This document shows, piece after piece, positions 1,116 through 18,349 of a stretch of 64,000 nt of DNA. Position 1 is the stretch's first letter; each line of letters starts with the position of its first letter. The translations under genes were made by a program, and so were the position numbers. The notes beneath the pieces were generated by a model. It made no database searches, was not told the DNA's origin, and saw only the letters and a program-made list of their open reading frames with translations. This stretch comes from Fibrobacter sp. (GTDB lineage Bacteria > Fibrobacterota > Fibrobacteria > Fibrobacterales > Fibrobacteraceae), in the NCBI GenBank assembly GCA_024398845.1, contig JAKSIM010000004.1, positions 1 to 64,000 of the forward strand, in the 5' to 3' direction.

Positions 1116-1418
1116 ATGTTACCGAACTAGGTTGCCCACCCCCGTAGCAAACCCCCGTTCCAACCCCTTTGCAAAGGCCTCTGAGTTTTTCTCAGAGGCT
1201 TTTTTTGTTTGTGTGCAAACAGGTGTGGAACCAGGTTAGCAACTAGGTTAAAAACGCCTATTTCGCACTGGATTGGCCACTTTTGGTTGCAAACAACGTT
1301 GCAAATCTTGGTGGCAAAAATGGTGGCAAACTGGGTTGCAAAAACACGTTTCCAAGTAGCCAAGGATGGTGTGGAACTGAGGTGTGCAATTCGGTGGAAC
1401 AAGGGTTCTTAACCATCA
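1116..1418. repeat. 303-bp direct repeat, guaA-side copy (12-bp-period array plus terminator)
   Basis: This matches 26617-26919 base for base as far as I can read, at a constant offset of 25501. The flanks diverge at once on both sides (G versus T before it, T versus G after it). Most of it is a degenerate tandem array with a period of 12 to 13 bp and a core near GGTTGCAAA. Units start at about 1130, 1143, 1156 and 1167, at 1222, 1234 and 1246, at 1285, 1297, 1310, 1322 and 1334, and at 1368, 1381 and 1393. A hairpin terminator sits between the first and second groups. Single-base shifts between units rule out a coding repeat. Function is unknown; an attachment or protein-binding array is possible. 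Confidence 0.93.
1177..1206 (+). terminator. Rho-independent terminator for guaA, inside the direct repeat
   Basis: A 9-bp stem GCCTCTGAG/CTCAGAGGC with a five-T loop is followed by seven T. It lies 66 bp after the guaA stop. The same structure recurs at 26678-26707 in the second repeat, so the pre-insertion chromosome probably also had it here. Confidence 0.9.
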
Positions 1419-1619: not shown

Positions 1620-1976
1620 ATGCAACGAAAAGAGCCCAAATGTCGCTGTGAAAAACGTGTAGTGGAAAAATCTACAGGCGTTTGCCGCCTATATAGCAGG
1701 CTCCAATCTGCCTACCTAGACATTCTTCAAGGAAGTGAATTCATTGAGTCCATTCAATGCAATGTACCTCTGGATGGTTTTTCCATGGGCGAATATACTA
1801 GCGATTTCCTTTGCAAACGTAAGGACGGAACGTTCATGGTCAGGGAATGCGTCGAAAGAAGATTCCTGACCAAACCCATGGTCATTTCCCTTCTGGATGC
1901 TTCAAGGCTTTTCTGGGCCAAGCGAGAAGTTTCTGATTGGGGTATAGTCACTACCCAGGAGAAAGCAGATGCATGA
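1620..1976 (+). CDS. tnsA: TnsA-like transposase endonuclease subunit (short form)
   Basis: In Tn7 relatives TnsA cuts the 5' ends of the element and partners TnsB. The ATG at 1620 has a strong ribosome site (TGGAGG) just upstream; the frame is open further upstream but without such a site. The product is only 118 residues, against about 270 for Tn7 TnsA, and covers just the nuclease-fold part. Visible blocks are SRLQSAYLDILQ, YTSDFLCKRKDG, VRECVERR and LLDASRLFWAKREVSDWGIV. The Asp of the PD-(D/E)XK fold is present. The usual first Glu position reads Gln, and the usual E-x-K reads E-C-V. The stop overlaps the tnsB start by 8 bp. The assignment rests on these blocks plus gene order. Confidence 0.8.
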   Translation: MQRKEPKCRCEKRVVEKSTGVCRLYSRLQSAYLDILQGSEFIESIQCNVPLDGFSMGEYTSDFLCKRKDGTFMVRECVERRFLTKPMVISLLDASRLFWAKREVSDWGIVTTQEKADA

Positions 1977-3792
1977 TATCAATTCGCTTTGGGAATCCAA
2001 TGACACAATCTATCGCATCCTGGATATCGTAGATGACGAATACCTGGTCATTGATTGCATAAAGCGTTGTAACCCGACCTTCATCAAGATGACAGACCTG
2101 GAGTCTGCAACCGCCATTACAGAAGAGGAATTAAGGCAAAGGGCAGGCATCACCATCCGAGACAACCTAAGTAGTCAGGAGCTGGCTGAGTGCAACAGGC
2201 GTTATACAATCATTAAGGATATCTTCAATGTCATCGGCAGTGACATTCAAAGATGCGAACAACTTCGAACTATGGCAAAGCTTAACAACCACAGCATACG
2301 TGGTGTTAAGAAATGGTTATACAAGTATGCAGCCTTCCAAGACATGCGAGTGTTTGCACCCAAAGAACAGACAGTTAAAGAATTGACGGAAGACCAGAAG
2401 AATTTTCGCTGGGCATTAAACAAGTTCTATTATACCCGTCACGGCAAGAACTTGTCTGACACATATATATGCCTTATTAAGGAAAAATATTGTGATGCCG
2501 AGGGTAAAATTCTACCCAACCGCCCAACAATGTTCCAGTTCAGGCACTTCTTCAAGAAACATCGGAACCTTCAGACAGAGTACATTAGCAGAGATGGTCT
2601 TAAAGATTATCAAATGAATCATCGGCCTCTACTTGGCGATGGTGTACAACAATTTGCCCCCACCATTGGCACTGGGATGCTAGATTCCACCATCTGTGAC
2701 ATCTACCTTTGCGACAATCAGGGTAACGTTGTAGGAAGACCAGTTCTTACTGCATGCGTAGATGCTTATAGTGGAATGTGTTGTGGTTATTCCCTTGGCT
2801 GGGAGGGTGGCATGTATAGCCTCAGAACTCTACTTACCAATGTAATTTCTGATAAGATTGTCCATTGTCGAAGCTTTGGTATTGAGATTACAAGGGACCA
2901 ATGGCCTTGTCAAGAATTACCCGCCACCCTAGTCACAGACAAGGGTTCTGAATACGCTTCAATGAATTTTGAACAATTAGCAGAACTTGGCATAACCATC
3001 GTAAACCTTCCTGCTTTTAGACCCGAATTAAAGGGACGTGTAGAAAAGCTCTTTGACCTCATTCAAACGTCCTATAAGCCGCATCTTAAAGGTCGTGGCG
3101 TCATTCAGACCGATTTCCAGAAGAGAGGTGGACATGATTATCGTCGGGATGCGAGTCTTACACTTCGAGATTTCGAATCCATCATCATCCATTCCATAAT
3201 CTATCATAACAACAGGCGAATGCTTGAAAAATTTCCATACACAGAAGACATGCTAAAACTAGAAGTTCCACCATTTCCTGTAAGTATTTGGAGCTACCAA
3301 AAGGAGCGTGGTTTAGGCAATCTAGTTGCAGTAACCAGCGAGATGCTTATCGCTGTGATGCTTCCCAGAACTACTGGAAAATTTACCCGAAAAGGACTTG
3401 TCGTTAATCGTCTTCGATATGCTTGCGATGGCTTTGCCGAGGAATTCCTGAAGGGAGGTAAAGTCATTGTAGCTTACAACCCTGACGATGTTTCCCATGT
3501 CTATCTGGTTGAGCAGGGATTTAAGAAATTCGAACTTATAGAGTCAAGATTCCTTGGTGCCAATTTGTCCCAAGTCGAAGAAACCCACCAAAAGCAAAGA
3601 GAACTTATGGACAAGTATTCGGAAGCAGCTTTACAAGGTAGAATTGACCTTGTAGCCCATATTCAGACCATAGCCGAACAAAGGTCAATCAAGCCTACAG
3701 ATAAACTGAAATCCATCCGTGAAACACGAAAAATGGAACAGCAAGAAAATCACATTGACCTGCTAAAGGAGCTTAACGATGGCAAACTTTAG
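1969..3792 (+). CDS. tnsB: TnsB-like DDE transposase
   Basis: This is the strand-joining transposase of the Tn7-like module. At 607 residues it is close to the family size. The N-terminal ~200 residues look like the DNA-binding region. The central retroviral-integrase-type domain shows Asp in MLDSTICDIYL (about residue 238), Asp in LVTDKGSEY (about 323) and Glu in LKGRVEKLFD (about 358), which together make a complete DDE set. A Mu-type beta-barrel and a charged tail that probably contacts TnsC follow. The start overlaps tnsA and has AGGAG upstream; the stop overlaps tnsC by 14 bp, so translation is likely coupled. Nothing suggests inactivation. Confidence 0.93.
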   Translation: MHDINSLWESNDTIYRILDIVDDEYLVIDCIKRCNPTFIKMTDLESATAITEEELRQRAGITIRDNLSSQELAECNRRYTIIKDIFNVIGSDIQRCEQLRTMAKLNNHSIRGVKKWLYKYAAFQDMRVFAPKEQTVKELTEDQKNFRWALNKFYYTRHGKNLSDTYICLIKEKYCDAEGKILPNRPTMFQFRHFFKKHRNLQTEYISRDGLKDYQMNHRPLLGDGVQQFAPTIGTGMLDSTICDIYLCDNQGNVVGRPVLTACVDAYSGMCCGYSLGWEGGMYSLRTLLTNVISDKIVHCRSFGIEITRDQWPCQELPATLVTDKGSEYASMNFEQLAELGITIVNLPAFRPELKGRVEKLFDLIQTSYKPHLKGRGVIQTDFQKRGGHDYRRDASLTLRDFESIIIHSIIYHNNRRMLEKFPYTEDMLKLEVPPFPVSIWSYQKERGLGNLVAVTSEMLIAVMLPRTTGKFTRKGLVVNRLRYACDGFAEEFLKGGKVIVAYNPDDVSHVYLVEQGFKKFELIESRFLGANLSQVEETHQKQRELMDKYSEAALQGRIDLVAHIQTIAEQRSIKPTDKLKSIRETRKMEQQENHIDLLKELNDGKL

Positions 3793-5014
3793 TTCTATGC
3801 TACCTCAATTATTACTAGGTGAGGACCTAGAGAAGGCACTCACTTGCCTTCCGCAATACAACCGTGAGGAAATCAAGACTTTATCAGCGAGCGAAAGACT
3901 TCTGAAACTTACTGACATCTATCGTATTTTCATTCCTACATCGATGACATACGAGATATACCAGAAGCTGTACACCATGGTTTCCATGTCCCTTCGGCAA
4001 AAAGGGAACATCGATTCCATAAAGCAGATGAACGCCAACTATAAGTGGGCACACGGTGGCGAGTTCCATGGCGTAGTCACAGGAGCATCCAGTAGTACAA
4101 TCATTGGCAATAGTGGCATCGGCAAAACATCGGCCATCCAATACGCCATTGGATTATTGGGTCCTATTCTGGAAACAGAAAAGCCTTACCATAAGGTTAT
4201 CCCCGTTCTTATGGTGAGTTGTCCATTTGACAGCAATTACAAAGGATTACTATGTCAAATTCTCATCAGTATTGACGAAATTCTTGGCACTAACTATTAC
4301 GAGCGAAGCGAAAAGAGCCACATGAACGCCCAACAAGTCCTAGGAATGGCATGTCAGCTTTGCCATCTATACGTTGGCACCCTAATCATAGACGAAATCC
4401 AATTCATCGTAGAACACAGAGCTGGCAAACAGCTTTACCTTATGATATTGCAACTCATTAACACCAGTTGTATTTCTGTTCTATTGGTTGGAACATCTGA
4501 ATGCATCTATTTCTTTCGCCAGGCTCCACAGATAGCAAGACGGTCTGTTGGACTTGAATATGGCCCTATGGATTTCGGAAATGATTTCAAGAAACTTTGT
4601 CAAACACTTTTCAACTACCAGTATGTTGCGAAGGATTCCGCACTTACAGATTCTTTAGTCTACTGGTTATATGAACATTCAGGAGGTATCAGTGCTTCAC
4701 TGGTCAGCCTTATTCATGACGCACAGGAAATCGCCATCATGAAGGGCAAGGAAATTCTTGGCATCGAAACGCTAACGGAGGCTTATAATTCCAGGCTAAA
4801 AATGCTCCACGGCTATACCACAGGTTCCATCACAAAACTTCAAACGTCAACCCATAAAGACAAGGTGGAATCAGCCTTTGCAACCTTCAAGCAAACAAAA
4901 TCTATTGATGTAGATGTCTCCATTGCCGATATCGTAGCCAAGGCAAAGAGGGACATGGCAGATGTCATGACCAGACTAAGAGAGCATATTACCATAGAGG
5001 TAATTCCATGTTAG
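3779..5014 (+). CDS. tnsC: TnsC-like AAA+ ATPase transposition regulator
   Basis: An ATP-dependent regulator that links the target-site protein to the TnsAB transposase. Its 411 residues include a clear Walker A (GNSGIGKTSA, about residues 110-118) and Walker B (LIIDEIQF, about 202-209). A sensor-like segment VLLVGTSE follows. This is the TniB/TnsC arrangement of AAA+ proteins. It begins inside the end of tnsB after AAAGGAG and overlaps the next gene by 7 bp, as part of one operon. All nucleotide-binding residues are intact, so it is probably active. Confidence 0.92.
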   Translation: MANFSSMLPQLLLGEDLEKALTCLPQYNREEIKTLSASERLLKLTDIYRIFIPTSMTYEIYQKLYTMVSMSLRQKGNIDSIKQMNANYKWAHGGEFHGVVTGASSSTIIGNSGIGKTSAIQYAIGLLGPILETEKPYHKVIPVLMVSCPFDSNYKGLLCQILISIDEILGTNYYERSEKSHMNAQQVLGMACQLCHLYVGTLIIDEIQFIVEHRAGKQLYLMILQLINTSCISVLLVGTSECIYFFRQAPQIARRSVGLEYGPMDFGNDFKKLCQTLFNYQYVAKDSALTDSLVYWLYEHSGGISASLVSLIHDAQEIAIMKGKEILGIETLTEAYNSRLKMLHGYTTGSITKLQTSTHKDKVESAFATFKQTKSIDVDVSIADIVAKAKRDMADVMTRLREHITIEVIPC

Positions 5015-6336
5015 GCTACATGCCAGAAATATACCCAGACGAACTCATTTATAGCTGGGTCAGTCGCTATTATAGTCACAATGGTTATCCAGGCTATAGG
5101 CAGGCTCTTGATGACCTGCTTGTTGGGAACAATGGCAGAGTCCACTTTGAGTTTGCTGGATATTTTAATGCGGACGCAATGAGTGTTATCAACTCCATGT
5201 ACTCTTTTCGAGATTTAATTCTGCAACACACCATGTTCCCTTACTACGCCCGATTCGACACATTAGAGCGTAGGCAAAATGCTTTAGCAGGCTTAATTGC
5301 TGGGGACAGGAAACTAGATTCTATGATGCAGTTTCCAAATGATAAAGTCCATCACCATCTAAAATTCTGTCCATCATGTTCCTATGAAGACCGTCAAAAG
5401 TATGGTGAAGCGTACTTCCATCGAATGCACCAAATTAGATGCATCAGCACATGTGCCAAGCACCATTGCAAACTTGTTGAAACACCCGTGAGGCTATATG
5501 GCAACGCTTCACCAAGGCTCCACGTCGCTGAGGAAATCATTTCCCAAACAGCAGAATCAATTCTTTCAAGTGATTTGGAAACAAAATTTTCCACCTACCT
5601 TGTGGACCTATTCAATGCCCCCATAAACTTTTCCAACTCAGTCCCCATCGGGGAATACTTGGCATCACGTCTGGAAGGAACGCAATACAAATCAACAATC
5701 AAATCTTACGTCTATTGTAAAGCCTTGGCTGATGACCTCAACCATTTTTATAGTCAAGATTGCATCCTGACGCACCATATCCAGAAGATTATCACGGGAA
5801 AACGCATTGATTTCACTCAGATTGCAAGAATCGGATTCTTTCTAGGAATAGCCACCAACGAACTAACCAATCCAATTATCATCCACCAGGAAAATCCATA
5901 CACACCAAGGATAAGAAAACCTCAGAATCACGATGTTCGAAGTGGAATGCAGACGGAGAACTGGAATGCCATGGACTCAGCCTCGTTACCGCTCGTAAGG
6001 AAGGTTATCGAAGACATCAAGCATGGTCAGGAAAGACCTGGCAAAATATCATCCAGAATTATCTGTCAAAAGATGGGTTGGCCAAGCAAGCGTCTAAATT
6101 ACTTGCCGTTATGCCGAGATGAAGTTTCAAGAAACATGGAACCCTTCGAGGAATACTGGGCAAAGGAAGTCGTATGGGCATTCAAAAAGGTCAAAGTAGT
6201 CGCTGGGCAAAAAAGGGTGTATTGGCGAGACATCAGAAACTTGACGAATATTCGAAGGGAACAGTTCCTGGCAACATTCCCCCTCTTAGCGAACTTCACC
6301 TCCAAGGACATTGCCGATGAAATCCAAAAACTTTAA
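5008..6336 (+). CDS. TniQ/TnsD-like target-selection protein
   Basis: In Tn7 relatives a TniQ-domain protein recognises the insertion site and recruits TnsC. Its 442 residues open with a TniQ-like segment (MPEIYPDELIYSWVSRYY). A zinc-finger region follows with CPSC near residue 120 and CISTCAKHHC near 145-154. The length is nearer to TnsD than to the short TniQ of CRISPR-associated transposons, and no Cas gene is present, so DNA-sequence-specific targeting is the likelier mode. The element sits just downstream of guaA, so guaA's 3' region is the obvious candidate target; that is inference. It is the last gene of the tns operon. Confidence 0.87.
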   Translation: MLGYMPEIYPDELIYSWVSRYYSHNGYPGYRQALDDLLVGNNGRVHFEFAGYFNADAMSVINSMYSFRDLILQHTMFPYYARFDTLERRQNALAGLIAGDRKLDSMMQFPNDKVHHHLKFCPSCSYEDRQKYGEAYFHRMHQIRCISTCAKHHCKLVETPVRLYGNASPRLHVAEEIISQTAESILSSDLETKFSTYLVDLFNAPINFSNSVPIGEYLASRLEGTQYKSTIKSYVYCKALADDLNHFYSQDCILTHHIQKIITGKRIDFTQIARIGFFLGIATNELTNPIIIHQENPYTPRIRKPQNHDVRSGMQTENWNAMDSASLPLVRKVIEDIKHGQERPGKISSRIICQKMGWPSKRLNYLPLCRDEVSRNMEPFEEYWAKEVVWAFKKVKVVAGQKRVYWRDIRNLTNIRREQFLATFPLLANFTSKDIADEIQKL

Positions 6337-6463: not shown

Positions 6464-7525
6464 ATGAACACAGCAAATCAGTCTATTCAGACCATCAATC
6501 CCTCCAATTTTCCCATTACCGAAGCCAACGCTGTCGAGATTCTTAACAGCAAGCCTGATTTTAATTCCCTTCCTGAATCTGACCGAACCCAGATTTTGAA
6601 AATTGCCGCAATCGATGATTACAAGAGTGAACTCCAACATAAGGCTAAAATTGCCAAGCTCAACTATTCTGACCTTAAGGCAACATTCCTGACCAACGCT
6701 AAATCAGTCCATACTAGAGAAGCCTATGTATTAGCCTTATCAAGATTGGAAATGTATTTGGGCATGCTGGGTAAATCCTTTGCAGAAATTTCAACTCTTG
6801 AAGCAGATAAGTTTATCCAGAGCCATTTCCTCTCCAAGCCCTTGTCCAAAGGGGCTTTAAACATGATGGCAGCAGACAGAGCCAGTGCATCTATTAGAAG
6901 AGACGCCTCCTGCATCGGAGCCTTCTATTCCTTTGTCCAGCGAATAAGCAATAATGAATTCGCCAATCCCTTCAGGGGAACAAGAGCAAAACCAGCTTTG
7001 CAACCTGTCAAAGAGCTTTGCGTACCCAGCAAGGAAGAGGTCGCTACCATCCTTGCTTCAAAGGATGTTCCAAAGGAATTACGAGCAGCAATCGCAATCA
7101 TGGCATACAGGGGAATTCGTGTTGGTGGACTTCCTGGATTGAACATTGATTACGTCAATCAGTCGTTCACCACTATGTCCAAGGGTAAGGCATACAACGG
7201 TCACTTGACCGAACTTGATTCTATAGGCTCCACCCCAGTTCTTAAATACTTCAATGTATTTGAGGGAAAAAAGAAACCCTTCAATGGAATGACAGCCCCG
7301 CAAATCAAAATGCAGGTGGCTTATTGGATGAAGAGGCTCCACCAGAAGGGAGCAATTTCTGTTTGTTATTCTTGTCATGACTTCAGACATCATTTTGCAG
7401 TAGCACAATATCGTGGCGATTACGCCAACAGCAATAAAGGCGACATTTATAGGCTCCAGAAGTTGCTAAATCATTCCAGCATCAGCATTACCGAAACTTA
7501 CCTGAAGACCCTGAACCTTATTTAA
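6464..7525 (+). CDS. Tyrosine recombinase/integrase
   Basis: A site-specific recombinase of the phage-integrase family, 353 residues. The N-terminal part (about 60-170) resembles a SAM-like core-binding domain. The catalytic part shows Arg in MAYRGIRVGGL (about 216), the HxxR box in CHDFRHHF (about 303-308), a later His in LLNHSSISITETYL and the nucleophile Tyr close to the C-terminus. It has its own promoter and leader, ribosome site AAGGGG and a terminator, so it is a separate unit from tnsABC-tniQ. It could have used the flanking 303-bp repeats as attachment sites, or resolve cointegrates. Which of these it does cannot be read from sequence. Confidence 0.9.
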   Translation: MNTANQSIQTINPSNFPITEANAVEILNSKPDFNSLPESDRTQILKIAAIDDYKSELQHKAKIAKLNYSDLKATFLTNAKSVHTREAYVLALSRLEMYLGMLGKSFAEISTLEADKFIQSHFLSKPLSKGALNMMAADRASASIRRDASCIGAFYSFVQRISNNEFANPFRGTRAKPALQPVKELCVPSKEEVATILASKDVPKELRAAIAIMAYRGIRVGGLPGLNIDYVNQSFTTMSKGKAYNGHLTELDSIGSTPVLKYFNVFEGKKKPFNGMTAPQIKMQVAYWMKRLHQKGAISVCYSCHDFRHHFAVAQYRGDYANSNKGDIYRLQKLLNHSSISITETYLKTLNLI

Positions 7526-7573: not shown

Positions 7574-9274
7574 CTACTCTGTCCACAGGAATGCTTTTAC
7601 CAAGTCCGCAGCTTCATTTTTACCACCCCTCACATCACTTCCTGTTGATGCTTCTGAAGCAAGATACCTCTCTTGCGAGTCCTTAATGAAACTGATTTTG
7701 CCATGATTATTCCCTTTTGTCACAAAATCTAATCCAAATGGCTTCATCACCTTTGTTCCATCAGACTTAAGAGCTTCTTTTCTTGCAACACCTTCCAACG
7801 CAGCCCTATTTCGTTTCATCGCTTCATATTTCTTCACGGATTCCGAATTTGCAGCAAGAATATTTTCAAGAATATCTTTGGCACGAATCCTTGGAGAATT
7901 ACTTGTTTTAGGAGTATTTGCAGCTCCTCGTTGTAACAAGGAAACTAAATGACAAATATACTCATCTTGATACATTTCATCTTCATTAGGCAACAGTAAT
8001 GGAATGAATCGTCCCTCTTGATTTTTCAACGAATCAACGCTACTCTTCAGCACAGCATTTGCGGTCTGCTCATTAAACAAATCTTCCTTTAATTGAGCGA
8101 TTTCTTCATCTTGAGCTTTTATTCTAGCATCATTTTCAATGACAAAGCCCTCATAAGTATCACGTTCATTCTGACAAGAATCCAAATCAGCTTTAATTTT
8201 GTCCAATTCGCAATTACGAGAATCCAGTTCATGGCGAAGTTCCTCAATCTGCTTTTGTAACTCTTGATTGAGTTTCATCTGCGATATTGCAGATTTTTGA
8301 GCGACATCAGCTTCGACAGAACGTAATTCAAGTTCTCGTTTTAACAAAAGTTGGTGTTCCGACTCCCGATGTTGAATTCCAACACGATACTGTTGTTCTA
8401 GTTCAAAATCCCTGAACTGTCTTTGAACAAGAAGGTAGTCTTCCCAGGAAAAATCAAATTTCGTCGATAAACTTTTCTTCAAGACCCCTAACAAAAAGTC
8501 TTGTACCAAAGCTCTAGGGTTTTCTTGCCAAGAGGCATTATCCCTACGATTTACAATCCGAACATTCTCCCCTGCATAACAAATACCAATTTCCCCCTTT
8601 TGAGGGAACGGAGTTTTCACATCTATTTTTATTCGGTCGTTTAAGTATTTATCCCTTTCAGCAAATACATGAGCGACACCAAAGAGCTGACTGGCAAGGG
8701 CACTAGGCTTAATTGCATGAGTTCGTTCTGAACTACTCAAATATATAATAGGAAGTCGATTGCCTTTTGTTCCTTTAAATATGGATATAGCTTCATCAAC
8801 ATTTAGCCCACTGACAAAATGAGGGCTGTTTGAAACAGAAATGTTGCCATCACCATCCTGAAACTTAGCAAGGTAGTCAATAATTTTAGGTTTTGATATT
8901 GGAGGAAATGATGCTCCCTTCTCTATCTCACAATCTAAAGAAACAAAACAAACAACATGCTTATTCGTTCGTTTTAATGCAATTCTGGTACGCCATCGTC
9001 TAAAATTATTTAATACAGAGAAGGTAAAACCTAAATAATCATGGCCACCATACGTAAATGCTTCGTATTCAAGAGACTCACCTGCAAACTCACATTTATC
9101 CTTACGAGTCTGTTTAAAATCTACGGTTCGAGGCAATCGTCGCAATATGGCATAATTCTTTTGGCCTGTCTTCTTATTTTCACTGCCATTAATCCATGGA
9201 TAAACGCATTCATTATAGACCTTTTCCCAAGGAAGGTCACTTCTTAAATTAAACGATGTACGAAATAATAGCAT
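7574..9274 (-). CDS. Coiled-coil protein with HicA-like C-terminal tail, function unknown
   Basis: I do not recognise the family. Of 566 residues, the first ~290 form a globular region with segments such as LPIIYLSSSERTHA and KGEIGICYAGENVRIV. Residues about 300-415 are a long charged coiled coil. The last ~65 residues (GLDFVTKGNNHGKISF, then SDVRGGKNEAADLVKAFL) resemble the small RNA-binding fold of HicA-type mRNA interferases and related tails. It is a single-gene unit between two terminators, converging on the recombinase. Its place among restriction and toxin-like genes suggests defence, but this is inference. No Shine-Dalgarno is obvious at the chosen start. Confidence 0.75.
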   Translation of the reverse strand: MLLFRTSFNLRSDLPWEKVYNECVYPWINGSENKKTGQKNYAILRRLPRTVDFKQTRKDKCEFAGESLEYEAFTYGGHDYLGFTFSVLNNFRRWRTRIALKRTNKHVVCFVSLDCEIEKGASFPPISKPKIIDYLAKFQDGDGNISVSNSPHFVSGLNVDEAISIFKGTKGNRLPIIYLSSSERTHAIKPSALASQLFGVAHVFAERDKYLNDRIKIDVKTPFPQKGEIGICYAGENVRIVNRRDNASWQENPRALVQDFLLGVLKKSLSTKFDFSWEDYLLVQRQFRDFELEQQYRVGIQHRESEHQLLLKRELELRSVEADVAQKSAISQMKLNQELQKQIEELRHELDSRNCELDKIKADLDSCQNERDTYEGFVIENDARIKAQDEEIAQLKEDLFNEQTANAVLKSSVDSLKNQEGRFIPLLLPNEDEMYQDEYICHLVSLLQRGAANTPKTSNSPRIRAKDILENILAANSESVKKYEAMKRNRAALEGVARKEALKSDGTKVMKPFGLDFVTKGNNHGKISFIKDSQERYLASEASTGSDVRGGKNEAADLVKAFLWTE

Positions 9275-9394
9275 ACATCTAATATACGATATTTTTCATA
9301 CATATTTACAAAAGCCCTACATTTTCGTTTAAGAAAAGCAAGGTTTTCAGTCACTTCAAAAATCAAGCAGTAGATTCATTCATATGACGCAAAA

Positions 9395-9424
9395 GAGCTG
9401 GGTCAATTTAACCCAGCCCTCTTT
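9395..9424. terminator. Bidirectional terminator
   Basis: GCTGGGT (9397-9403) pairs with ACCCAGC (9411-9417), extended by AGAG/CTCT. An A-run precedes it and a T-run follows it. It sits just past the stop of the 126-residue gene. Confidence 0.8.
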
Positions 9425-9805
9425 TTATGTGGGATTATTACAGGCTCTAACCTTAGGCCCATTTTCTGGGTCATCTAGCAAAAACCTCATCATGGACGCC
9501 TTCATTTCTATTGATAAATTAGCCCATAACCAACTTAGATATGGATGTATTGTATAATCGCCACAGGTTTTCAAACTAAGCACAGAAACATCATAGGTCT
9601 CCACATCAAAGTAAATTTCAAACACAGGCGATTTCTGCGTCATGGAATCTTTTTTACTTGCATACACGAACAAAGCAACGTTATATACATCTATTCGTGT
9701 TTCAATTCCAAACTTTTCCAGATATGACTGGAGCCTCACAAGCTGCAAGCCCACATCAAATAATCCAAATTCAGCATAATCATCTAAAGTCATATTTTCC
9801 CACAT
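9425..9805 (-). CDS. Small hypothetical protein
   Basis: A 126-residue acidic protein with no family that I recognise. It has alternating hydrophobic stretches (YNVALFVYASK, FEIYFDVETYDVSVLSL) that suggest a small alpha/beta domain, and no signal peptide. A clear terminator lies at its stop and another (9849-9872) lies upstream, so it is a monocistronic cargo gene. Opposite-strand frames here are short and look like shadows. Confidence 0.6.
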   Translation of the reverse strand: MWENMTLDDYAEFGLFDVGLQLVRLQSYLEKFGIETRIDVYNVALFVYASKKDSMTQKSPVFEIYFDVETYDVSVLSLKTCGDYTIHPYLSWLWANLSIEMKASMMRFLLDDPENGPKVRACNNPT

Positions 9806-9848
9806 GTAGATTCTATGTATAGTTTATAATATCAGTCGAAACACAAAA

Positions 9849-9872
9849 AAGGCACCCCATCGGGCACCTTTT
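9849..9872 (-). terminator. Terminator of the hsd-GIY-YIG operon
   Basis: Read on the minus strand, AAGGTGCCC pairs with GGGGTGCCTT using two G-U pairs and is followed by TTTTTTGTG. It lies 28 bp past the stop of the last operon gene. Confidence 0.75.
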
Positions 9873-9899
9873 CAAGAGTCATTGATACAACAAAATTGT

Positions 9900-10628
9900 C
9901 TATATATCTTTTCGAGGCTGCTTGGCAAAGACCTTTTTCAAGTTTTTCAAACATTGTTCTTGATGTTCAGGCCATTTTGATGATTTTTTAGCCCCCTCAA
10001 TTGAACCAAAAAATCCCTTTATGCACCAGGCAAAATTGGTTTTATCAGTGTTCAAAAGATTGTCTAAAAAGCCCTCTTGGATAGCCCTAATAATGAGGTA
10101 AGTTTCCATTGTATAAATAAGCGAACCTTTCTTATCATAGACTTCCTTACCATCTACCATTTTTCTTCCATTGAGAATTTTATTCGTTTTGCCATTCCAA
10201 AAAATAAGATAAAGATGGAGATGGTTCTTATAAGTCTTCTTATCCCAATTTTTATCACAGAAAAAGTCTTTAAGTAAATCCCGTTTATGCTTTGCAAAGC
10301 ATTCTTGGAAAAAGCCTCTCCTTCCTCCAGCCATACCTATATAGATTGGTGTAGTCCCCCATGTAAAGATATAGCACCCTTGTTCATTACGATACTTTCG
10401 ACGATTTGCACTTCGTTCGCCATAAGCTTTAGAAAGTTTATCATCAACACGAGTCCAAAAAGCTTCACGCAATTCTATGTCCGATGTTTTATTTGGGTCA
10501 AGAACGTCGTTCAGCTCTGTTATATACCAATTATCCTTATTTTTTTCCTTACGATACTTAAAATATTCCGTAGATATGTTTAAAGGCGGTGATATTCGGA
10601 AAAAACTTTCTACTACACTTTCAGACAT
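9900..10628 (-). CDS. GIY-YIG-like nuclease protein
   Basis: About 242 residues. The segment GCYIFTWGTTPIYIGMAGG (about residues 83-101) is a GIY-YIG signature in the variant form YIF...YIG, followed by conserved basic residues. The family are metal-dependent DNA nucleases found in restriction enzymes, homing enzymes and repair proteins. The ATG at 10628 is preferred to an in-frame TTG at 10637. It is the last gene of a minus-strand run hsdM-hsdS-hsdR-GIY-GIY, 25 bp after the previous gene, so it is probably co-transcribed with the restriction system. Its role there is unknown. Confidence 0.78.
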   Translation of the reverse strand: MSESVVESFFRISPPLNISTEYFKYRKEKNKDNWYITELNDVLDPNKTSDIELREAFWTRVDDKLSKAYGERSANRRKYRNEQGCYIFTWGTTPIYIGMAGGRRGFFQECFAKHKRDLLKDFFCDKNWDKKTYKNHLHLYLIFWNGKTNKILNGRKMVDGKEVYDKKGSLIYTMETYLIIRAIQEGFLDNLLNTDKTNFAWCIKGFFGSIEGAKKSSKWPEHQEQCLKNLKKVFAKQPRKDI

Positions 10629-10653
10629 AAAACTCAATACTATCTAATTAAAC

Positions 10654-11532
10654 TTATTTCCCCTTACGGAACTTTTTTAGCTTGGAACCATCATCACATC
10701 TCCAGTTAGTCCAGCCATTGCAAGATGAGCCTATTACAAAGGCGCCAGCACCAGATGGAGAATCAAAAGTCACATCATCCTGAAGGATTCCATTCTCAAT
10801 GATGGCATTATTGCGTTTTTCCACCACAGCATCCCACATTCCGATACCTTCACCCTGGCAAATTTCACTGCCTTTCAAGACTATGAACATACCATCACAA
10901 ACCTTCATTGTAGCAGAAACAGATTTATTTCCAATACGTTTTATCTTACGGCAAAGATGATAGGTCCCATTGGGAATGACACTGAAATCATTGCTACCTA
11001 CATCATCATCGATATCAACATCTACGTCTTCCTTATCAACCTTGCTGGTAATCAAATCAAGACCTATGGCATCCAACATTTCCAAAGCCTCCTTAATGTA
11101 TTCCTGGCAAGGAGTTTCATCGGAAGCATTGGCTGTAGATGAAGAAGTCACCTTAGTTGTATTATTGAATCTACCAAGGCCATTCACGGTTTCATTGAGG
11201 TAATTTTCAATGTATTGAATGGTTCCATCATTGAAGAAGGTTCTTTCCTTGAACTGGGTCAATACATAGCAGAAACGCCAAGAATCACTCTTATCATCAT
11301 GAGCTGTAGGCCTATTCTTCAAGCCATTCTTCGACTTTCCAACGTATATCTTTTCGTCATCACTTACAAGGATATAGACAATAAAGTTATTGTCCACAGG
11401 GAACGCACTTCCACCCTGCAAAAGCGTCAAGTAAGGGATTCGATATACCAGAGTAGTACTGTTCGCCTTGCTAATTTCAACAGAGCGGCCCCTGTACTTG
11501 ATACGGTAATTCTTTTCACTTAAATCTGCCAT
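10654..11532 (-). CDS. GIY-YIG nuclease with C-terminal DUF4357 domain
   Basis: 292 residues. FIVYILVSDDEKIYVGKS (about 50-67) is a GIY-YIG box. The C-terminal part ends SSCNGWTNWRCDDG, typical of DUF4357, a small module found at the end of such nucleases and of some methyltransferases. A Ser/Thr- and Asp-rich linker (residues about 125-185) joins the two. The start has AAAGGA upstream and lies 11 bp after the hsdR stop, so it belongs to the hsd operon. It is likely an accessory nuclease or modifier of the restriction system; substrate unknown. Confidence 0.85.
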   Translation of the reverse strand: MADLSEKNYRIKYRGRSVEISKANSTTLVYRIPYLTLLQGGSAFPVDNNFIVYILVSDDEKIYVGKSKNGLKNRPTAHDDKSDSWRFCYVLTQFKERTFFNDGTIQYIENYLNETVNGLGRFNNTTKVTSSSTANASDETPCQEYIKEALEMLDAIGLDLITSKVDKEDVDVDIDDDVGSNDFSVIPNGTYHLCRKIKRIGNKSVSATMKVCDGMFIVLKGSEICQGEGIGMWDAVVEKRNNAIIENGILQDDVTFDSPSGAGAFVIGSSCNGWTNWRCDDGSKLKKFRKGK

Positions 11533-11543
11533 AATGGATTCCT

Positions 11544-14500
11544 TTACGCCTGTTGCCCAGGATTGACTACTCCATGAATGTTTTCAAGATAGTTCTTGAG
11601 AGGCACCATCTTGTCGCTAAACACTTCCAGTTGTTCGTCAAACGGAGACTCATTAACCACAGTTTCGGTGGTAATATCGCCATTTTCGCACACATAGGAA
11701 ATAACATCCATCAAGAACTCTTCCTGCATGGAGTTCAGCTTTGAACCTGACAGGAACTGGCTAAATCTCTGAACAGCAACCTTGCGGTCCACGCCAATCA
11801 AAGAACGAATCAAGATGGCAACGTTTTCACCACAAACCATACCTTGGGTGTACTTCTCGTACTCTTCCTTGGAGCCTAATTCCTCCCAGAAAATGTGTTC
11901 CAGTTCGACGATATCATCAGTGGAAAGCTGTTCCATATTGTATATCTTGTCAAGCACTGGTGTATTACGTTTCTGAGCGATGTAATCCAAGACCCTTTGC
12001 TTATAGGTTGTCTTTGTTTGGATGTTTGTACTTTCGCCATCGTCTGTAATGGTATCTGCAATGTTGATGACGAAGGTCTGACCCTTGTCGCCCATAAGGA
12101 ACTTTACCAGTTCTCGGATATCTAAACGAACCTTTTCAAGCCAAGCAAGATTCATGTTCTGCCATGCAGTTGGATTCAATACTTCCTTGATGGTGTCCAT
12201 CTTCTGAACTACCTGCGGGATTGTCGCCTTGTCCAAAAGCCTTTCGCCAATCTTCTGGATTAGAATCACTGACTTACCTGCATCATAGGCATCACAAATC
12301 ATGCCCAATTCCACAGCAAGAACCAAGACATCAAACTTCTTGGCATTTTCATCCTGGGTATTGCGGGGCAACAAATGTGCAATTTTGCCCTTCAAAGTCT
12401 GCACATCAGCTTCAGCCAAGCATACCCAAGCCTTTGCATCCTGGAACTTTGAAACGGAATCCCACTCAGTACGGACAGATATATGGCTATTGGAAAGCAC
12501 GCCTACCTGCTGTTTCATGATTTCTTTCAGGTCATCATGCAAGCCCTTGGCAAATTCGTCTTCCTGATATTTTTGATGCTGCAAATGGAATGCGATTTCA
12601 GCTCTTAGATGGAATAGATGTTCCGTCAAGGACAAAGCTGGCTTAGCTTCCTTGCCATCAGGATTCTTCTCGAAATACTCAAAATTGCGGCACCAATCGA
12701 AGATGTAGAAGCATTCCTTATCCTGTCCTGGTCCGAAAATATCAGCAGACAAACGGGTGCCACGACCAATCATTTGCATGAACTTAATCTTGGACTTCAC
12801 AATCTTGAAGAACACCAGATTCAGTACATCAGGAACATCGATACCAGTATCTAGCATATCAACAGAAACAGCTATCTGTGGATTGGCATCTCGCTTTTCA
12901 AGATTGTCGATTAAGTCTTGGGAGTAGGTCACATAGTTGTCAATAAGAACACAGAAATCGGCACCATATTCAGGGTACAATTCATGGAAGCGTTCCACAA
13001 TAAGCTCAGCATGCTTATGGTTGTAGGCAAAGATGATGGCCTTTCCGATGCGTTCGCCACTCTGCACCCTAAGTCCATGTTCCATTAGGTCTTGAAGAAC
13101 TTTATCAACCGTATTCTTGTTGAAAATGTACTTGAAGATTTCATCGCTACGGATGTCTCGGCCATGGAGCTTGCCATCAATGGCATCCTTGGTTTCCTCA
13201 TATTCCCAGACCTTTTCAAGCTCATCCTTTTCTGCTTGGGACAACGAACTGTACTTGATGCCCTCCTTGAGAATCATTGAACCACGTTTGAAACCATGAT
13301 AGTAGACCAGGAATCCATCGTCCACGGCTTTTTCAAGTTCGTAGGCGTAGTTCGGTTCCCCTTCTTCCATACCGAAGAGGTCATAGGTACTCTTATCCAC
13401 CTCTTTTCTCGGAGTGGCTGTAAGACCTATCAGAAGCGAATCAAAGTAGTTGAAAATGGCCCCATACTTACCGAAAATGGAACGATGAGCTTCATCAATG
13501 ATTATCAAGTCAAATCGGCCTACTGAGAAAGGCTTATCCTCTGTGTCGATATAGTTAATCATTGTCTGGTAAGTCGAAAAGACAATACGGGCATTCAGGT
13601 CTATATCGGCCTTATTGGTCTTATCACTCAATACGGTCGTAGTCGTGTTCGGCAACAGCTTCACGAAGTTCCTGTGAGCCTGTCCAACCAAAGACGTTCT
13701 ATCAGCAAGGAACAAGACATTCTTTACCCAATCATTTCGGGTAAGGACATCCACCAGGGATATGGAAACACGGGTCTTGCCAGTACCTGTAGCCATAACA
13801 AGAAGACCACGACGATGCTTGGCGTTATACCATTCACAAACAGCCTTGATAGCCATCTTCTGGTAATATCGGTCAGTTATGTTCGGCTTAACCTCAAAAT
13901 CATCGATATCATGTCGACCTCTTTTCTGAATCATCAGTTCCAGGTCAGCCTCTGTATGGAAGCCGTAAAGGCGACGAGGGGGATATCCAAGGCCATCTAT
14001 GATATAGGTTTCAAACCCATTGGTGTAATAGATGACAGGCAAGCGGCCACATGACTTTTCTAGGCACTTTGCGTAAAGTTCCGCCTGGTGTTTACCCTTG
14101 ATTGGCGATACCGACGAACGTTTAGCCTCAACCACAGCAAGAGGCAATCCATCTGCCCCGTACAGCACATAGTCTGCATAGCCTTCATTATGGTTGTTGG
14201 GCATGCCTTCCACATAGACTTCAACACAGGCCTTTGAGGGAATCACCTGACCATCAACAGTCAGCACATCCCAGCCAGCTTCACGGAGCATGAGGTCGAT
14301 GAACATCTTGCGGGTTTCAGCCTCGGTAAGGTCAGTGGGCATTTCATGGACTGATGCAGAACTATTGGCAGCTTGTTTATCAGATTTGCTTACCAAAGCA
14401 TCGTTATCATCAACCTTGATATTCTCATCAACGAAGGACGGGGCAAACTTTGAATTGGGTATGAGGGCCTTATCCAGCTTTGCTACAGAATCAACAACCT

Positions 14501-14870
14501 TCAGCTTGATAAGAACAGATGCCACCACATTGTAGATATTCAGTAAACAGAAGAACGATTCAGTCTTACCAACCTTGCCATCATGTGCCCCAGCATTGCC
14601 AACCCTTCGTACATAATGAGCGGCCATCATCACCTTTTCATCATTGATGAAGCCACGGAACGGTTCTGCATCCATCAGCTCATAGAGAGAGGCCCTTTCG
14701 GGTATGACGGCCTGTTTCATGGTATAGATGGACTTTACCACGTATTCCAAGGCTCGTCTTGCATTGATGGCACTGAGGTCAGGATGGTTTATCTGGTTGT
14801 CCTCAGCAGCGGAGCAGAAGTTGTATAGCCTGGGCAAACCAAGGGACTGCATGTAGTCAAAGTTCTTCAT
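11544..14870 (-). CDS. hsdR: Type I restriction enzyme, HsdR subunit
   Basis: The motor and nuclease subunit that translocates DNA and cuts unmodified sequence. 1108 residues. The N-terminus (about 10-110, with NARRALEYVVKSIY) looks like a DUF4145-type helical domain. The HSDR nuclease domain with AVVEAKRS (about 245-255) follows. The helicase has Walker A in MATGTGKTRVS (about 358-366), DEAH in LIIIDEAHRS (about 455-462), and later MIGRGTRL. The C-terminal part is of the EcoEI type. It follows hsdS by 4 bp. All key motifs are intact. Confidence 0.96.
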   Translation of the reverse strand: MKNFDYMQSLGLPRLYNFCSAAEDNQINHPDLSAINARRALEYVVKSIYTMKQAVIPERASLYELMDAEPFRGFINDEKVMMAAHYVRRVGNAGAHDGKVGKTESFFCLLNIYNVVASVLIKLKVVDSVAKLDKALIPNSKFAPSFVDENIKVDDNDALVSKSDKQAANSSASVHEMPTDLTEAETRKMFIDLMLREAGWDVLTVDGQVIPSKACVEVYVEGMPNNHNEGYADYVLYGADGLPLAVVEAKRSSVSPIKGKHQAELYAKCLEKSCGRLPVIYYTNGFETYIIDGLGYPPRRLYGFHTEADLELMIQKRGRHDIDDFEVKPNITDRYYQKMAIKAVCEWYNAKHRRGLLVMATGTGKTRVSISLVDVLTRNDWVKNVLFLADRTSLVGQAHRNFVKLLPNTTTTVLSDKTNKADIDLNARIVFSTYQTMINYIDTEDKPFSVGRFDLIIIDEAHRSIFGKYGAIFNYFDSLLIGLTATPRKEVDKSTYDLFGMEEGEPNYAYELEKAVDDGFLVYYHGFKRGSMILKEGIKYSSLSQAEKDELEKVWEYEETKDAIDGKLHGRDIRSDEIFKYIFNKNTVDKVLQDLMEHGLRVQSGERIGKAIIFAYNHKHAELIVERFHELYPEYGADFCVLIDNYVTYSQDLIDNLEKRDANPQIAVSVDMLDTGIDVPDVLNLVFFKIVKSKIKFMQMIGRGTRLSADIFGPGQDKECFYIFDWCRNFEYFEKNPDGKEAKPALSLTEHLFHLRAEIAFHLQHQKYQEDEFAKGLHDDLKEIMKQQVGVLSNSHISVRTEWDSVSKFQDAKAWVCLAEADVQTLKGKIAHLLPRNTQDENAKKFDVLVLAVELGMICDAYDAGKSVILIQKIGERLLDKATIPQVVQKMDTIKEVLNPTAWQNMNLAWLEKVRLDIRELVKFLMGDKGQTFVINIADTITDDGESTNIQTKTTYKQRVLDYIAQKRNTPVLDKIYNMEQLSTDDIVELEHIFWEELGSKEEYEKYTQGMVCGENVAILIRSLIGVDRKVAVQRFSQFLSGSKLNSMQEEFLMDVISYVCENGDITTETVVNESPFDEQLEVFSDKMVPLKNYLENIHGVVNPGQQA

Positions 14871-14874
14871 AGGC

Positions 14875-16050
14875 TTACCCGAAATACTTGTCCATGGTAT
14901 AGCCCAGAAGCTTCTGAGTTTCGGCTATGGACTGGTTGATTGCGTCCTTCTGAGATTCAATAAAGGCAATCTTATCAGCGAATTGTTGTTGGAGAGTGAA
15001 TGGAGGAAGCTCACATTCGTAAGACATCAATGCTTCTCTATTTATTTTAGGTATATTTGCTCGTCCTGAATGAGAAATTGCGTACTCGATAAATTTACGT
15101 TGCGTGAGCACATACTTAAGATATTGTCTATTTACCAAACCATTTTTTGGAATGATAGGATACATATCAGCACTACATATTCCAACAAATGTCGGCAATG
15201 CTACCTTGTTTAAATTTGGACGAATTTTCGAATACAGAACCATTGTATCGTCAAAAAGGTACTTTCCGCTAATCAAACCTTCGTCTTTAGCTAGTTTAAC
15301 ATCAACAAATGCCCCTGTATTTGATTGTATGTTAGCACCTCCAATATGAGGGTAATTACAATAAGGTTCTTCATTTGGATTTACTAAACCATTAACCACT
15401 GAAGATATTTCGCCCAATCGTTTTACTTCCCACCCCTTCGTGTTTTCAATGGGGTCGCCAAACATGTCGTAGAAGATGGCCTGAGCCAGGTTGTCCAATT
15501 CCTTCAGCTGAGCCTTCTGTTTGTCCAATACGCCATTCAGCAGGTCAAGTTCCGTAACTATGCGTTCCTGCTCTGGCATTGGCGGGACAGGGATTTCAAA
15601 CTTTGATAATTCGCTCCATTTAAGGTTATTTATGTTTGCCCCATTAAATATGGTGTTTAAAAACATCCTATAAGATTGCGAACGGCAGCTATAAAACATA
15701 TAGCGTGGGGACACCAAAGTCTGCTTTGGTTCTATAGCCCCCATAAAGCCACCAAAGGCCATATCAAGATTAGAGGATATATAAGCGACCTTACCTAAAT
15801 GCTGGGTACTTCCATTGGACATACATATAAATATGTCTCCAGCATGAAGTTTTTTATCATCGGGAATAACAAAGTCTTCTCGCAAACACGCAACATCCTC
15901 AAAATTAAGAGTAGATGACTCAAGAGATATGTTGTTAGAACGCAAAACCTTCTTACAGGTTCCTTCTGCCACATCATTTTTAGCAAAAGTCAAGCCCCGA
16001 CGAAACAAGGCTATATCGCTAAATCTACACAAATTACAAGACTGATTCAT
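14875..16050 (-). CDS. hsdS: Type I restriction enzyme, HsdS specificity subunit
   Basis: Gives the restriction-modification complex its DNA target. 391 residues. Two target-recognition domains are each followed by a conserved helical spacer: LSKFEIPVPPMPEQERIV (about 150-165) ends the first and YECELPPFTLQQQFADK the second. GWEVKRLGEISSVVNG marks the start of the second recognition domain. It lies between hsdM (11 bp upstream) and hsdR (4 bp downstream) on the same strand. It is full length, so the bipartite specificity is probably functional. The recognised sequence cannot be inferred. Confidence 0.94.
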   Translation of the reverse strand: MNQSCNLCRFSDIALFRRGLTFAKNDVAEGTCKKVLRSNNISLESSTLNFEDVACLREDFVIPDDKKLHAGDIFICMSNGSTQHLGKVAYISSNLDMAFGGFMGAIEPKQTLVSPRYMFYSCRSQSYRMFLNTIFNGANINNLKWSELSKFEIPVPPMPEQERIVTELDLLNGVLDKQKAQLKELDNLAQAIFYDMFGDPIENTKGWEVKRLGEISSVVNGLVNPNEEPYCNYPHIGGANIQSNTGAFVDVKLAKDEGLISGKYLFDDTMVLYSKIRPNLNKVALPTFVGICSADMYPIIPKNGLVNRQYLKYVLTQRKFIEYAISHSGRANIPKINREALMSYECELPPFTLQQQFADKIAFIESQKDAINQSIAETQKLLGYTMDKYFG

Positions 16051-16061
16051 AACACACCACC

Positions 16062-17555
16062 TTACAGGTACTTCTCCTGGAACTCGGTCATGGCGGCAGT
16101 AATCTCATCCTGCAACTTCTTGATACGCTTGAATACTGCTTTCGGAGATTCGTATTCCACCTTGACCTTCTCAACTTCCTTGTACTTGTTGATGGACAGG
16201 TCATAGTCATTGGCGACAATCTCTTCCTTGGAAACAAAGAAGGACTGGTCCTTACGGGTCCTGTTTTCCTCAGCTTCAAGATTATTCCAACGGGCAATGA
16301 TGTCAGGAATGTCGTTTTCGGAGCATTCTGTACGCTTCTGGTCAAGAGTATAACCATCGGCCTTCATATCGTAGAACCACACCTTGTCGGTGCCACCAGC
16401 ATTAGTCTTGGTGAATATCAAGATTGCCGTGGAAACACCGCTATAGGGCTGGAATACGCCACTGGGCATGCTAATCACAGCTTGCAAACGCTGGTTGTCT
16501 ACCAATTCCTTGCGAATGGCCTTATGGCCCGTACTATTACCGAACAGAACACCATCAGGCACAATGGAGGCACAACGGCCACCAAGCTTCAGCATGCGAA
16601 CAAACAGTGCAAGGAACAGCAATTCCGTCTTCTTGGTCTTGGTAATGGCAAGCAAGCTCTTAGCAACCACTTCATAGTCAAGGCTACCAGCAAACGGAGG
16701 ATTGGCCAGACAGAGTGTATAACGGCCTTCATCGGTGTTATCGGAACTTAGGCTGTCCTGGAACTTGATATCGGGATTATCTACCCCGTGAAGCATCAGG
16801 TTCATAGCACCTATACGGAGCATGGTCGGGTCAGTATCAAAGCCATGGAACATCTCGTTGCGGTAATGTTCCTGGTTCTCCTTCTTCAGCAATTCCTTCT
16901 TGAACTTTTCAAGGACATACTTGGCAGATTCCACTACAAAGCCAGCGGAACCCATGGCAGGGTCGCTCATGACGTCCTTCAAGGTAGGCTTCATCAATTC
17001 TACCATCATGCGGATGATATGGCGGGGGGTACGGAACTGTCCGTTATTGCCACTTGCAGCCATCTTACCAAGGACATACTCATAGACATCGCCCATGGTG
17101 TCCCTATTGTTCATGTCAAGGCCATCGATACCCTCAACAATCTTCACGAGGGTACGTGCATTCTGAATCATGAAGGTGGCACTATCCATGAACCTGCTGT
17201 AAGCGGATTCCTTGCCATCGTTCAAGGTCTTGATAAAGATGAAAACATCCTTGGAAACAAGGCGGTACATCGCCTCGGCTTCCTTGTTCTTGAAGTTGCT
17301 CCAGCGGAGGTCTGCATAAGGAACATCCTTGTCCGTATCAGGATTATGCCATTTCCCTTCCTTGAATACAGGGTCCTTGACCTTCACGCCCATCACATTT
17401 GCGGCAGATTCCTTCTTCTTCTGGCTATCATCAAGCATCTTCATAAAGAAGAGGTAGGTCATCTGCTCCAAAATTGTCATTGAATTGGTGATGCCACCCG
17501 TCCAGAAACTATCCCAAATAGCGTCAATACGATTCTTGATGTCGCCTGTAATCAT
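16062..17555 (-). CDS. hsdM: Type I restriction enzyme, HsdM methyltransferase subunit
   Basis: N6-adenine methyltransferase that, with HsdS, protects host DNA and supplies the core of the restriction complex. 497 residues. An N-terminal helical domain (MTILEQMTYLFFMKML) is followed by the SAM-binding motif DPAMGSAGF (about 196-204) and the catalytic NPPFAGS (about 283-289). It is first in the operon, and AAGG lies before its ATG. The 140 bp between it and the divergent protease-like gene must hold both promoters. Confidence 0.96.
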   Translation of the reverse strand: MITGDIKNRIDAIWDSFWTGGITNSMTILEQMTYLFFMKMLDDSQKKKESAANVMGVKVKDPVFKEGKWHNPDTDKDVPYADLRWSNFKNKEAEAMYRLVSKDVFIFIKTLNDGKESAYSRFMDSATFMIQNARTLVKIVEGIDGLDMNNRDTMGDVYEYVLGKMAASGNNGQFRTPRHIIRMMVELMKPTLKDVMSDPAMGSAGFVVESAKYVLEKFKKELLKKENQEHYRNEMFHGFDTDPTMLRIGAMNLMLHGVDNPDIKFQDSLSSDNTDEGRYTLCLANPPFAGSLDYEVVAKSLLAITKTKKTELLFLALFVRMLKLGGRCASIVPDGVLFGNSTGHKAIRKELVDNQRLQAVISMPSGVFQPYSGVSTAILIFTKTNAGGTDKVWFYDMKADGYTLDQKRTECSENDIPDIIARWNNLEAEENRTRKDQSFFVSKEEIVANDYDLSINKYKEVEKVKVEYESPKAVFKRIKKLQDEITAAMTEFQEKYL

Positions 17556-17695
17556 ATAGCAAATACCTTGATGTAGTAATACAATGGAAATATAGTTCTA
17601 ACATAATATTTTATAGACCATAAACAGTTATAATTACAGGAAAAACGACAAAAACAGTTAATCTTAGAATACAAAGTCATTGCAAGGATGAGTAA

Positions 17696-18298
17696 ATGTC
17701 ACAAATAGATGATGAAAGAATGTTAACAGCCTACCATGAGGCAGGCCATATCGCAATATCCTACTATTTCGGATTCTCTGTAAAAGGCTCCAAACTATTA
17801 TTTAAAGACGATGACCCAGATTTCTTCACTTTGATGAACAGCAAGGACAAATGGATTGGTGTAACTCCCATAAAATATGGGAATTACATGCCTTATGCAA
17901 AGGCTCTAAATAATATCGACGAACAAGCTGTCAATGAATATTCTAATCAAGAGCCATTTGGACTGTTTGTTCAAAAATTCGCTCTTGTTATGGCTGCTGG
18001 ATGGTATGGAGAAATTCTCTATTGGACAGAATGTAAATCAAAAAGGCCTTCAGATGTGCCTCAGGAAATGGATGATGGTCCAGACAGAGATGTTCTGAAC
18101 TTTATCTATACCCTTGATTCAAAGTTTAAAACATATATCAACACTTATTGTCCGATAATGTTAGACTTACACAAAGAACAAATAAAGGCTATAGCGTCCG
18201 CACTTTATGAAAAGAAAGAGTTAAACTCTAGTGAAATTGAGGCAATCATATCAGCAAACCCAATGACCCCTCCAACCGAGGAATTGCGAAATCTTTAA
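17696..18298 (+). CDS. Stand-alone M41 (FtsH-type) metalloprotease-like domain protein
   Basis: 200 residues. [16 protein letters not shown] (residues about 11-26) contains the zinc motif HEAGH exactly as in the FtsH peptidase domain. ALVMAAGWYGEILYW and the acidic GPDRDVLNFIY further on fit the family's second conserved block and third zinc ligand. No AAA+ ATPase domain or membrane segment is present, so the protease half stands alone. The next gene starts 51 bp downstream on the same strand with its own ribosome site, so the two are probably an operon. It is divergent from hsdM. Likely a cargo gene of a defence or regulatory system; substrate unknown. Confidence 0.78.
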   Translation: MSQIDDERMLTAYHEAGHIAISYYFGFSVKGSKLLFKDDDPDFFTLMNSKDKWIGVTPIKYGNYMPYAKALNNIDEQAVNEYSNQEPFGLFVQKFALVMAAGWYGEILYWTECKSKRPSDVPQEMDDGPDRDVLNFIYTLDSKFKTYINTYCPIMLDLHKEQIKAIASALYEKKELNSSEIEAIISANPMTPPTEELRNL

Positions 18299-18349
18299 TC
18301 AAAAATCATCTTACGGACGAAATCGAAACTCTAAAGGAAAATAAGAATA

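Follow-up and report, generated by a model that had tools for sequence, protein, structure and literature searches.

The 3' end of guaA in the window (the whole stretch of Fibrobacter DNA analysed here, 64 000 nucleotides) is followed by a long direct repeat rich in short units spaced 12-13 bp apart. The question raised by this locus is what such an array serves for, and what the repeat that carries it is. In an earlier note the array was read as a set of sites bound cooperatively by one protein (TnsB, a TniQ-like protein or a recombinase) along one face of the DNA, within a repeat flanking an element. The non-coding array of probable protein-binding sites is retained here; the single DNA face and the repeat as a mere flank are given up.

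The array and the repeated unit at guaA

The extent of the repeat was confirmed: 1116-1418 and 26617-26919 are identical at 303 of 303 positions. Autocorrelation on these 303 bp gave a peak at lag 12 (z 7.0), a height reached by none of 2000 dinucleotide shuffles, with satellites at lags 13, 24, 25 and 37. Pairs of identical 4-mers at lag 12-13 numbered 38 (3.5 expected), and periods of 12 and 25 were obtained independently with Tandem Repeats Finder. The unit starts noted earlier were recovered as GGT at 1222, 1234, 1246, 1285, 1310, 1322, 1334, 1368, 1381 and 1393; another listed start, 1297, reads CGTTGCAAA, not GGT. Within runs the units are spaced by about 12.3 bp on average, with one-base slips and gaps. 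A protein-coding repeat was rejected because of these slips, as had already been argued. B-DNA has 10.5 bp per turn, and steps of 12.3 bp turn successive units by about 60 degrees; since this spacing is not a whole helical turn, the units wind round the DNA and do not follow one face. The unit (about GTTTGCAAAC) comes close to a palindrome, and a matrix trained on the right part of the array scored 7.6-8.0 on both strands at the left-end units. The orientation of such a unit is not reliably readable from the matrix, so that an inverted orientation of the array is unproven.

In sister genomes, the guaA stop codon is followed by TAGCGCGGAGCCGAG. In the window this sequence is interrupted after GCGGA, and GCGGA occurs again after the right repeat. 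The window flanks, once joined, were aligned without gaps to the empty sister sites over 162 bp (93-94% identity). The gapless alignment and the GCGGA on both sides identify 1117-26919 as an insertion with a 5-bp duplication. Base 1116 is part of this duplication, and the repeated element is 302 bp long (1117-1418); it is called X below.

1112-1116: left target duplication GCGGA, 5 bp, just after the guaA stop codon (1108-1110); matches the right flank
1117-1418: left X, 302-bp gene-less mini-transposon with TG...CA ends; identical to 26618-26919, with homologous X in G059, G057, G046 and G071
1132-1175: left-end units of the array (12-13 bp spacing), upstream of the terminator (right-part-trained matrix)
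1175-1206, + strand: intrinsic terminator, with a hairpin at 1175-1201 (-18.3 kcal/mol) and then a T run at 1200-1206
1209-1400, + strand: right-end units, about 13 near GGTTGCAAA, spaced 12-13 bp apart with gaps (autocorrelation, Tandem Repeats Finder, matrix matches)
26618-26919: right X, identical to the left X (sequence comparison)
26920-26924: right target duplication GCGGA, 5 bp (flank comparison)

Long direct repeats, a tyrosine recombinase gene and a location 3' of guaA would also suit a classical genomic island, inserted at guaA by the recombinase, with the 303-bp repeats as attL and attR. At the empty guaA sites of the sister genomes the 302 bp are missing and the 5-bp target alone is present. 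The repeat is thus not present once at the empty host site, unlike that of attL/attR islands, and its reading as an att site was rejected on this ground. A 5-bp duplication is found instead, guaA sequence is absent from the repeat, and the architecture is common to elements with a serine recombinase or none. The island explanation is barely credible.

Each X of the window reads, in order, as a TG end, a few units, the terminator, about 13 more units and a CA end, without a conserved ORF; the tns genes sit in the DNA between the copies, the core. Each copy is hence a complete mini-transposon with both transposon ends, not simply the border of an element. Solo copies were found at guaA in G046, with its own duplication (ACCAA), and in G071, without duplication. 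The termini of X are inverted and match at 17-22 of 30 positions in G059, G057, G046, G071, G044, G170, G174 and G171; they pair more weakly in L075, G173 and the window (11/27 in the last).

The search was extended to other guaA loci, and the 12-bp period was found in G059, G057, G046 and G071 (lag-12 z 5.2-5.8), all of which bear the element or a solo X. The array was missing only from empty guaA sites, as predicted for an array carried by the element. Only X of the Fibrobacter guaA lineage show the 12-bp period (five X, z 5.2-7.5); other X have periods of 24 bp (G174 and G171) or, weakly, 22 bp (G173). Judging from these sequences, the most likely role of the 12-base repeats is that of ends at which the transposase binds, carried by a gene-less mini-transposon of 302 bases, with TnsB as the most likely ligand of the units. 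TnsB touches DNA through two tandem N-terminal domains (PMC9527255); a repeat spacing of 12 or 24 bp fits these two domains, which is agreement and not proof. An Rfam search of the right X gave sub-threshold matches only, which were taken as chance.

Two further types of sequence were observed near guaA. A second X-like fragment (TGTGACGAAGTAAGCGACGGTTCC...), with a terminator near +90, follows guaA in Fibrobacter L034, L039, L186, L205 and L206, with a GTAGC repeat on either side in L034 and L205; these fragments are probably fossils of another X lineage. An intergenic repeat family (GCCGAGTGTCGCAAAAATGAGCTTGCTCATTTTTATGACCGAGGCG...) occurs in one or several copies across Fibrobacter, at 26925-27020 of the window and in many guaA flanks (e.g. 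L029, L182).

The core, its genes and related elements

The transposase genes and cargo form a block of about 25 kb between the X copies, and the whole unit, X-core-X, spans 1117-26919.

1419-26617: element core, both edges adjoining X with inverted CTCTA/TG ... CA/TAGAG (conserved edges)
1620-1976, + strand: TnsA-fold protein of 118 aa with substitutions at the catalytic Glu and Lys (AF2, Foldseek, weak Pfam TnsA_N, alignment)
1969-3792, + strand: TnsB transposase, D239/D324/E359 invariant (Pfam Mu-transpos_C; TnsB alignment)
3779-5014, + strand: TnsC/TniB-like AAA ATPase (Pfam TniB, 2.2e-14)
5008-6336, + strand: TniQ/TnsD-like target selector (Pfam TniQ, 2.8e-19)
6464-7525, + strand: tyrosine recombinase, catalytic pattern kept (Pfam Phage_integrase, 4.7e-7; alignment)
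7574-26549: cargo, including ArdC (23110-24066), DUF3800 (24135-25313) and a HipA-like protein (25434-26549) (Pfam)

By eye, the cargo at 11544-17555 resembles a type I restriction-modification system, alongside the ArdC antirestriction protein identified with Pfam at 23110-24066. As in Tn7-like elements, TnsB (DDE), TnsC (AAA) and TniQ are encoded in one operon, in the same order in most related loci. Its proteins, duplication and target place the element in the Tn7-like family, but its ends are not found on either side of the transposition genes as separate arrays; these genes lie between two complete X.

The first gene product was modelled with AF2 (pLDDT 94) and matched 1t0f in Foldseek (E 4.9e-6, query TM 0.77); a profile search against PDB sequences gave no match. 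Aligned to canonical TnsA, the protein keeps the Asp; the Glu is mostly Gln, and essentially none of 57 loci retains the Lys. The protein thus appears, with residues assigned by alignment, to be a TnsA nuclease fold without the catalytic Glu and Lys. A natural TnsA-TnsB fusion was observed at L074:805-3003, where a single ORF of 732 aa matches both proteins. Systems without TnsA yield cointegrates (PMC8188705), and loss of TnsA together with a resolvase predicts a replicative route (PMC8649781). From TnsA-less cointegrate formation, an X carried on a circle should give target-X-core-X-target with a 5-bp duplication, the arrangement seen here.

TnsB was aligned across 64 related loci, mainly from Clostridia, with some from Fibrobacter. 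Ten cases of X-core-X were found: the window, G059, G063, G057 (assembled across two contigs), G044, L075 (Blautia), G170 (Ruminiclostridium), G171, G173 and G174. The core edges are the same in G059, G057 and G063 and similar in G044, L075, G170, G171 and G174. The guaA stop codon lies a few bp upstream of the insertion in the window, G059, G063, G057, G046, G174 and G170. The TG...CA termini are general, with departures at one terminus (L075 ends in TA, G173 begins with TA). X measures 244-405 bp among the elements and about 216 bp in G171. In L065, L223 and L224, a subgroup, insertion follows a gene whose C-terminus resembles pyruvate phosphate dikinase (ppdK), and the X of this subgroup have long inverted termini of about 26 bp. 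No second X was found within about 70 kb downstream in G168, and the DNA available for G175 held a single X and no further copy.

Exact 5-bp duplications bound nine of the ten X-core-X (GCGGA, CGGCT, GGTTT, GGAGC, TACAA, ATAAA, TTTCA, AACGG and TGAAT); G170 has none. X sequences are strongly diverged between elements, and within elements the two copies are 100% identical in the seven that are fully sequenced, 99.5% in G171 and 97% in G174; both copies in G063 contain N runs. These figures bear on the idea that site-specific or homologous recombination brings a circle into a solo X already present at guaA, X being a MITE-like relic used as an attachment site. The solo X in G046 and G071, the apparent stacking of a solo X beside another in G021 C70 and the presence of a recombinase are in its favour. 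Entry of this kind into diverged X would often give mosaics, which the seven identical pairs do not show, and the duplications all differ, so that X was deposited independently each time. As a general account it is distinctly unlikely, although integration into a solo X may coexist with transposition.

A recombinase is encoded in eight of nine closed elements (four tyrosine, four serine), which is consistent with exchange between X copies. The array could be mainly a binding and synapsis region for the recombinase, as an extended res or IRS-like site within X, with TnsB at the outermost units only. In favour of such a role, a recombinase accompanies nearly all elements, and the window, G063 and G074 have both the recombinase family and similar units in common; repeated half-sites are also found in resolution sites. 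Against it, G059 retains the array without a recombinase gene, 24-bp repeats occur in the X of serine-recombinase elements, so that repeats do not track one class, and the units reach both transposon termini. A mainly recombinase-binding array is therefore unlikely. The G059 element (L046/L047) is an X-core-X of 8.6 kb with a shortened tnsC and without tniQ or recombinase; it is apparently degenerate yet keeps identical X copies and a 5-bp duplication.

Inner edges, edge promoter and leader

The core carries an outward promoter at its right edge, followed by a leader with a partner inside X.

26566-26594, + strand: sigma70-type promoter TTGTCA-N17-TATATT, 23 bp before X, directed outward (conserved place in closed elements)
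26606-26613, + strand: leader AAAAACTC, complement of GAGTTTTT in the terminator of X (pairing test)
1183-1190, + strand: GAGTTTTT, predicted antiterminator partner within the X terminator (complementarity)

A -10-like hexamer was found 17-23 bp before the right X in 9/9 closed elements, with TTG at -35 spacing in eight (chance expectation about 1% per element). This promoter reaches tnsA-B-C-tniQ only if the right edge of the core is joined through X to the left edge, which argues for a circle. The inner edges of the core, inverted and conserved (CTA/TG...CA/TAG in most elements, across phyla), also support a circle; they would be irrelevant if the element moved by its outer ends. The core-X-core junction itself was found in three IMG/VR metagenome contigs (L215, L225 and L219/L227), outside any host flank; in each, the promoter-bearing right edge runs through one X to tnsA. 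These contigs could be circles; tandem insertions would look alike. Also in line with a circle, many contigs break off some 600-780 bp upstream of tnsB, in the way that assemblies end at repeats. No closed circular contig was found by end overlap, and plasmid records held only distant TnsB relatives (about 30% identity).

X-core-X could alternatively be an ordinary cut-and-paste transposon mobilized by its outermost ends, with the inner ends of X as baggage and the copies kept identical by gene conversion. The 5-bp duplications do bound the whole unit, and a TnsA-fold protein is always encoded. This explanation leaves the inner edges, the promoter directed through X, the junction contigs and the loss of TnsA residues unaccounted for, and is highly improbable.

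An intrinsic terminator was found by a simple T-run search in every X examined except that of G044, and the leader of the junction promoter complements the 5' part of this terminator. The pairs are ACAAGGT/ACCTTGT in several Clostridia, ACTCTC/GAGAGT in G059 and AAAAACTC/GAGTTTTT in the window, with long matches in G173 and G174. Own pairs had a mean of -12.1 kcal/mol vs -7.3 kcal/mol for mismatched pairs (set-level permutation P 5e-5). In ten of 11 cases the pairing was stronger than in shuffles of the same pair (P<0.05), the window alone being non-significant (P 0.18), and the set amounts to about four independent lineages because several elements share ancestry. This complementarity suggests that the transposase genes are on only in circles. 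Transcripts from guaA would stop in the left X; those made in the circle would bear the leader, which is predicted to disrupt the terminator of X, and would continue into the tns operon. In the integrated state, transcription from the edge promoter should likewise cross the right X and enter host DNA.

Proposed cycle and comparison with known systems

A cycle can be proposed from the observed architecture, duplications, empty and solo sites, inner junctions and promoter, and core-X-core contigs, with TnsB binding, replicative integration, recombinase action on X and antitermination as its inferred steps. X would have its permanent place in a larger circle that also carries tnsA*-tnsB-tnsC-tniQ, cargo and a site-specific recombinase. 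Guided by TniQ, the complex would reach guaA at its 3' edge, where TnsB, without active TnsA, would join the target to the 3' ends of X. X would then be replicated, which would make the entire circle part of the chromosome in the form X-core-X, with 5 bp duplicated; this cointegrate would be the normal integrated state. Recombination between the two X copies by the recombinase (or RecA) would free the core with one X and leave a solo X. In the circle only, the edge promoter would drive X and then the tns operon. That TnsB binds the array, as part of the two ends of X, and that an X-bearing circle integrates as a cointegrate released by the recombinase, is considered reasonably probable.

The broader claim is more tentative, and its chances are close to evenly balanced: that these elements form an undescribed Tn7-like class, an inside-out transposon whose ends sit as a 220-400 bp cassette on a circle, with a stable cointegrate, excision by a dedicated recombinase and a topology-switched operon. 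Topology would act as the switch because the promoter and antiterminator leader are joined to the terminator-bearing cassette and the tns genes in the circle alone. No description of the X-core-X architecture was found in the literature searched, which covered a minority of subscription papers.

Such elements would be a natural site-specific system in which transposon ends are separated from transposon genes. For an entire circle to enter guaA, a very small end cassette might suffice, a point of interest for genome-insertion tools aimed at gut anaerobes. The cycle suggests a possible reason why some Tn7-like systems manage without active TnsA, and offers a concrete RNA-level hypothesis for telling the integrated from the circular state. 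It may also help to account for the breaks in assemblies and the solo fragments met at guaA, and at other targets, in genomes from rumen and gut. Callers seeking inverted-repeat arrays that flank tnsB may misdelimit X-core-X elements.

Among known systems, replicative Tn7-like transposons (Tn5053/Tn402 type and type V-K CAST; clades 2 and 3 in Benler et al. 2021, PMC8649781) have in common with the window element TnsB-TnsC-TniQ, a 5-bp duplication, TG...CA ends, an accompanying serine or tyrosine resolvase, insertion beside a conserved gene and, as seems to hold for the window element, no functional TnsA. Their genes lie between the two ends and their cointegrate is transient, whereas in the window element both ends share a gene-less cassette that lies outside the genes, and the cointegrate would be the integrated form. 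The cut-and-paste Tn7 has a TnsA with catalytic Glu, Asp and Lys, of which the window family appears, from the alignment, to keep the Asp and not the Glu or Lys.

The translocatable units and pseudo-compound transposons of IS26/IS6, in which a circle with one transposing unit enters as a cointegrate (PMC7986276), are also close to the cycle proposed here: their circle holds one transposing unit and neighbouring DNA, direct copies bound the integrated form and excision leaves one copy. IS26, however, encodes its own transposase within the repeated unit, generates 8-bp duplications and has no gene target, whereas X has no gene and would depend on TnsBC-TniQ from the core. By analogy only, X resembles MITEs and solo LTRs, as a short non-coding unit with transposon ends and solo copies left by recombination between direct copies, and X-core-X resembles LTR elements in its TG...CA termini and identical flanking copies; unlike these, it is bacterial, has a Tn7-type DDE transposase and involves no reverse transcription or RNA intermediate. 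In Tn916-type elements, circularization puts genes under a promoter from the opposite element end, and the window element would likewise have its genes switched on by circularization. It differs from the Tn916 type in that integration looks transpositional, with a 5-bp duplication, and in that a predicted leader antiterminator would gate the operon through X.
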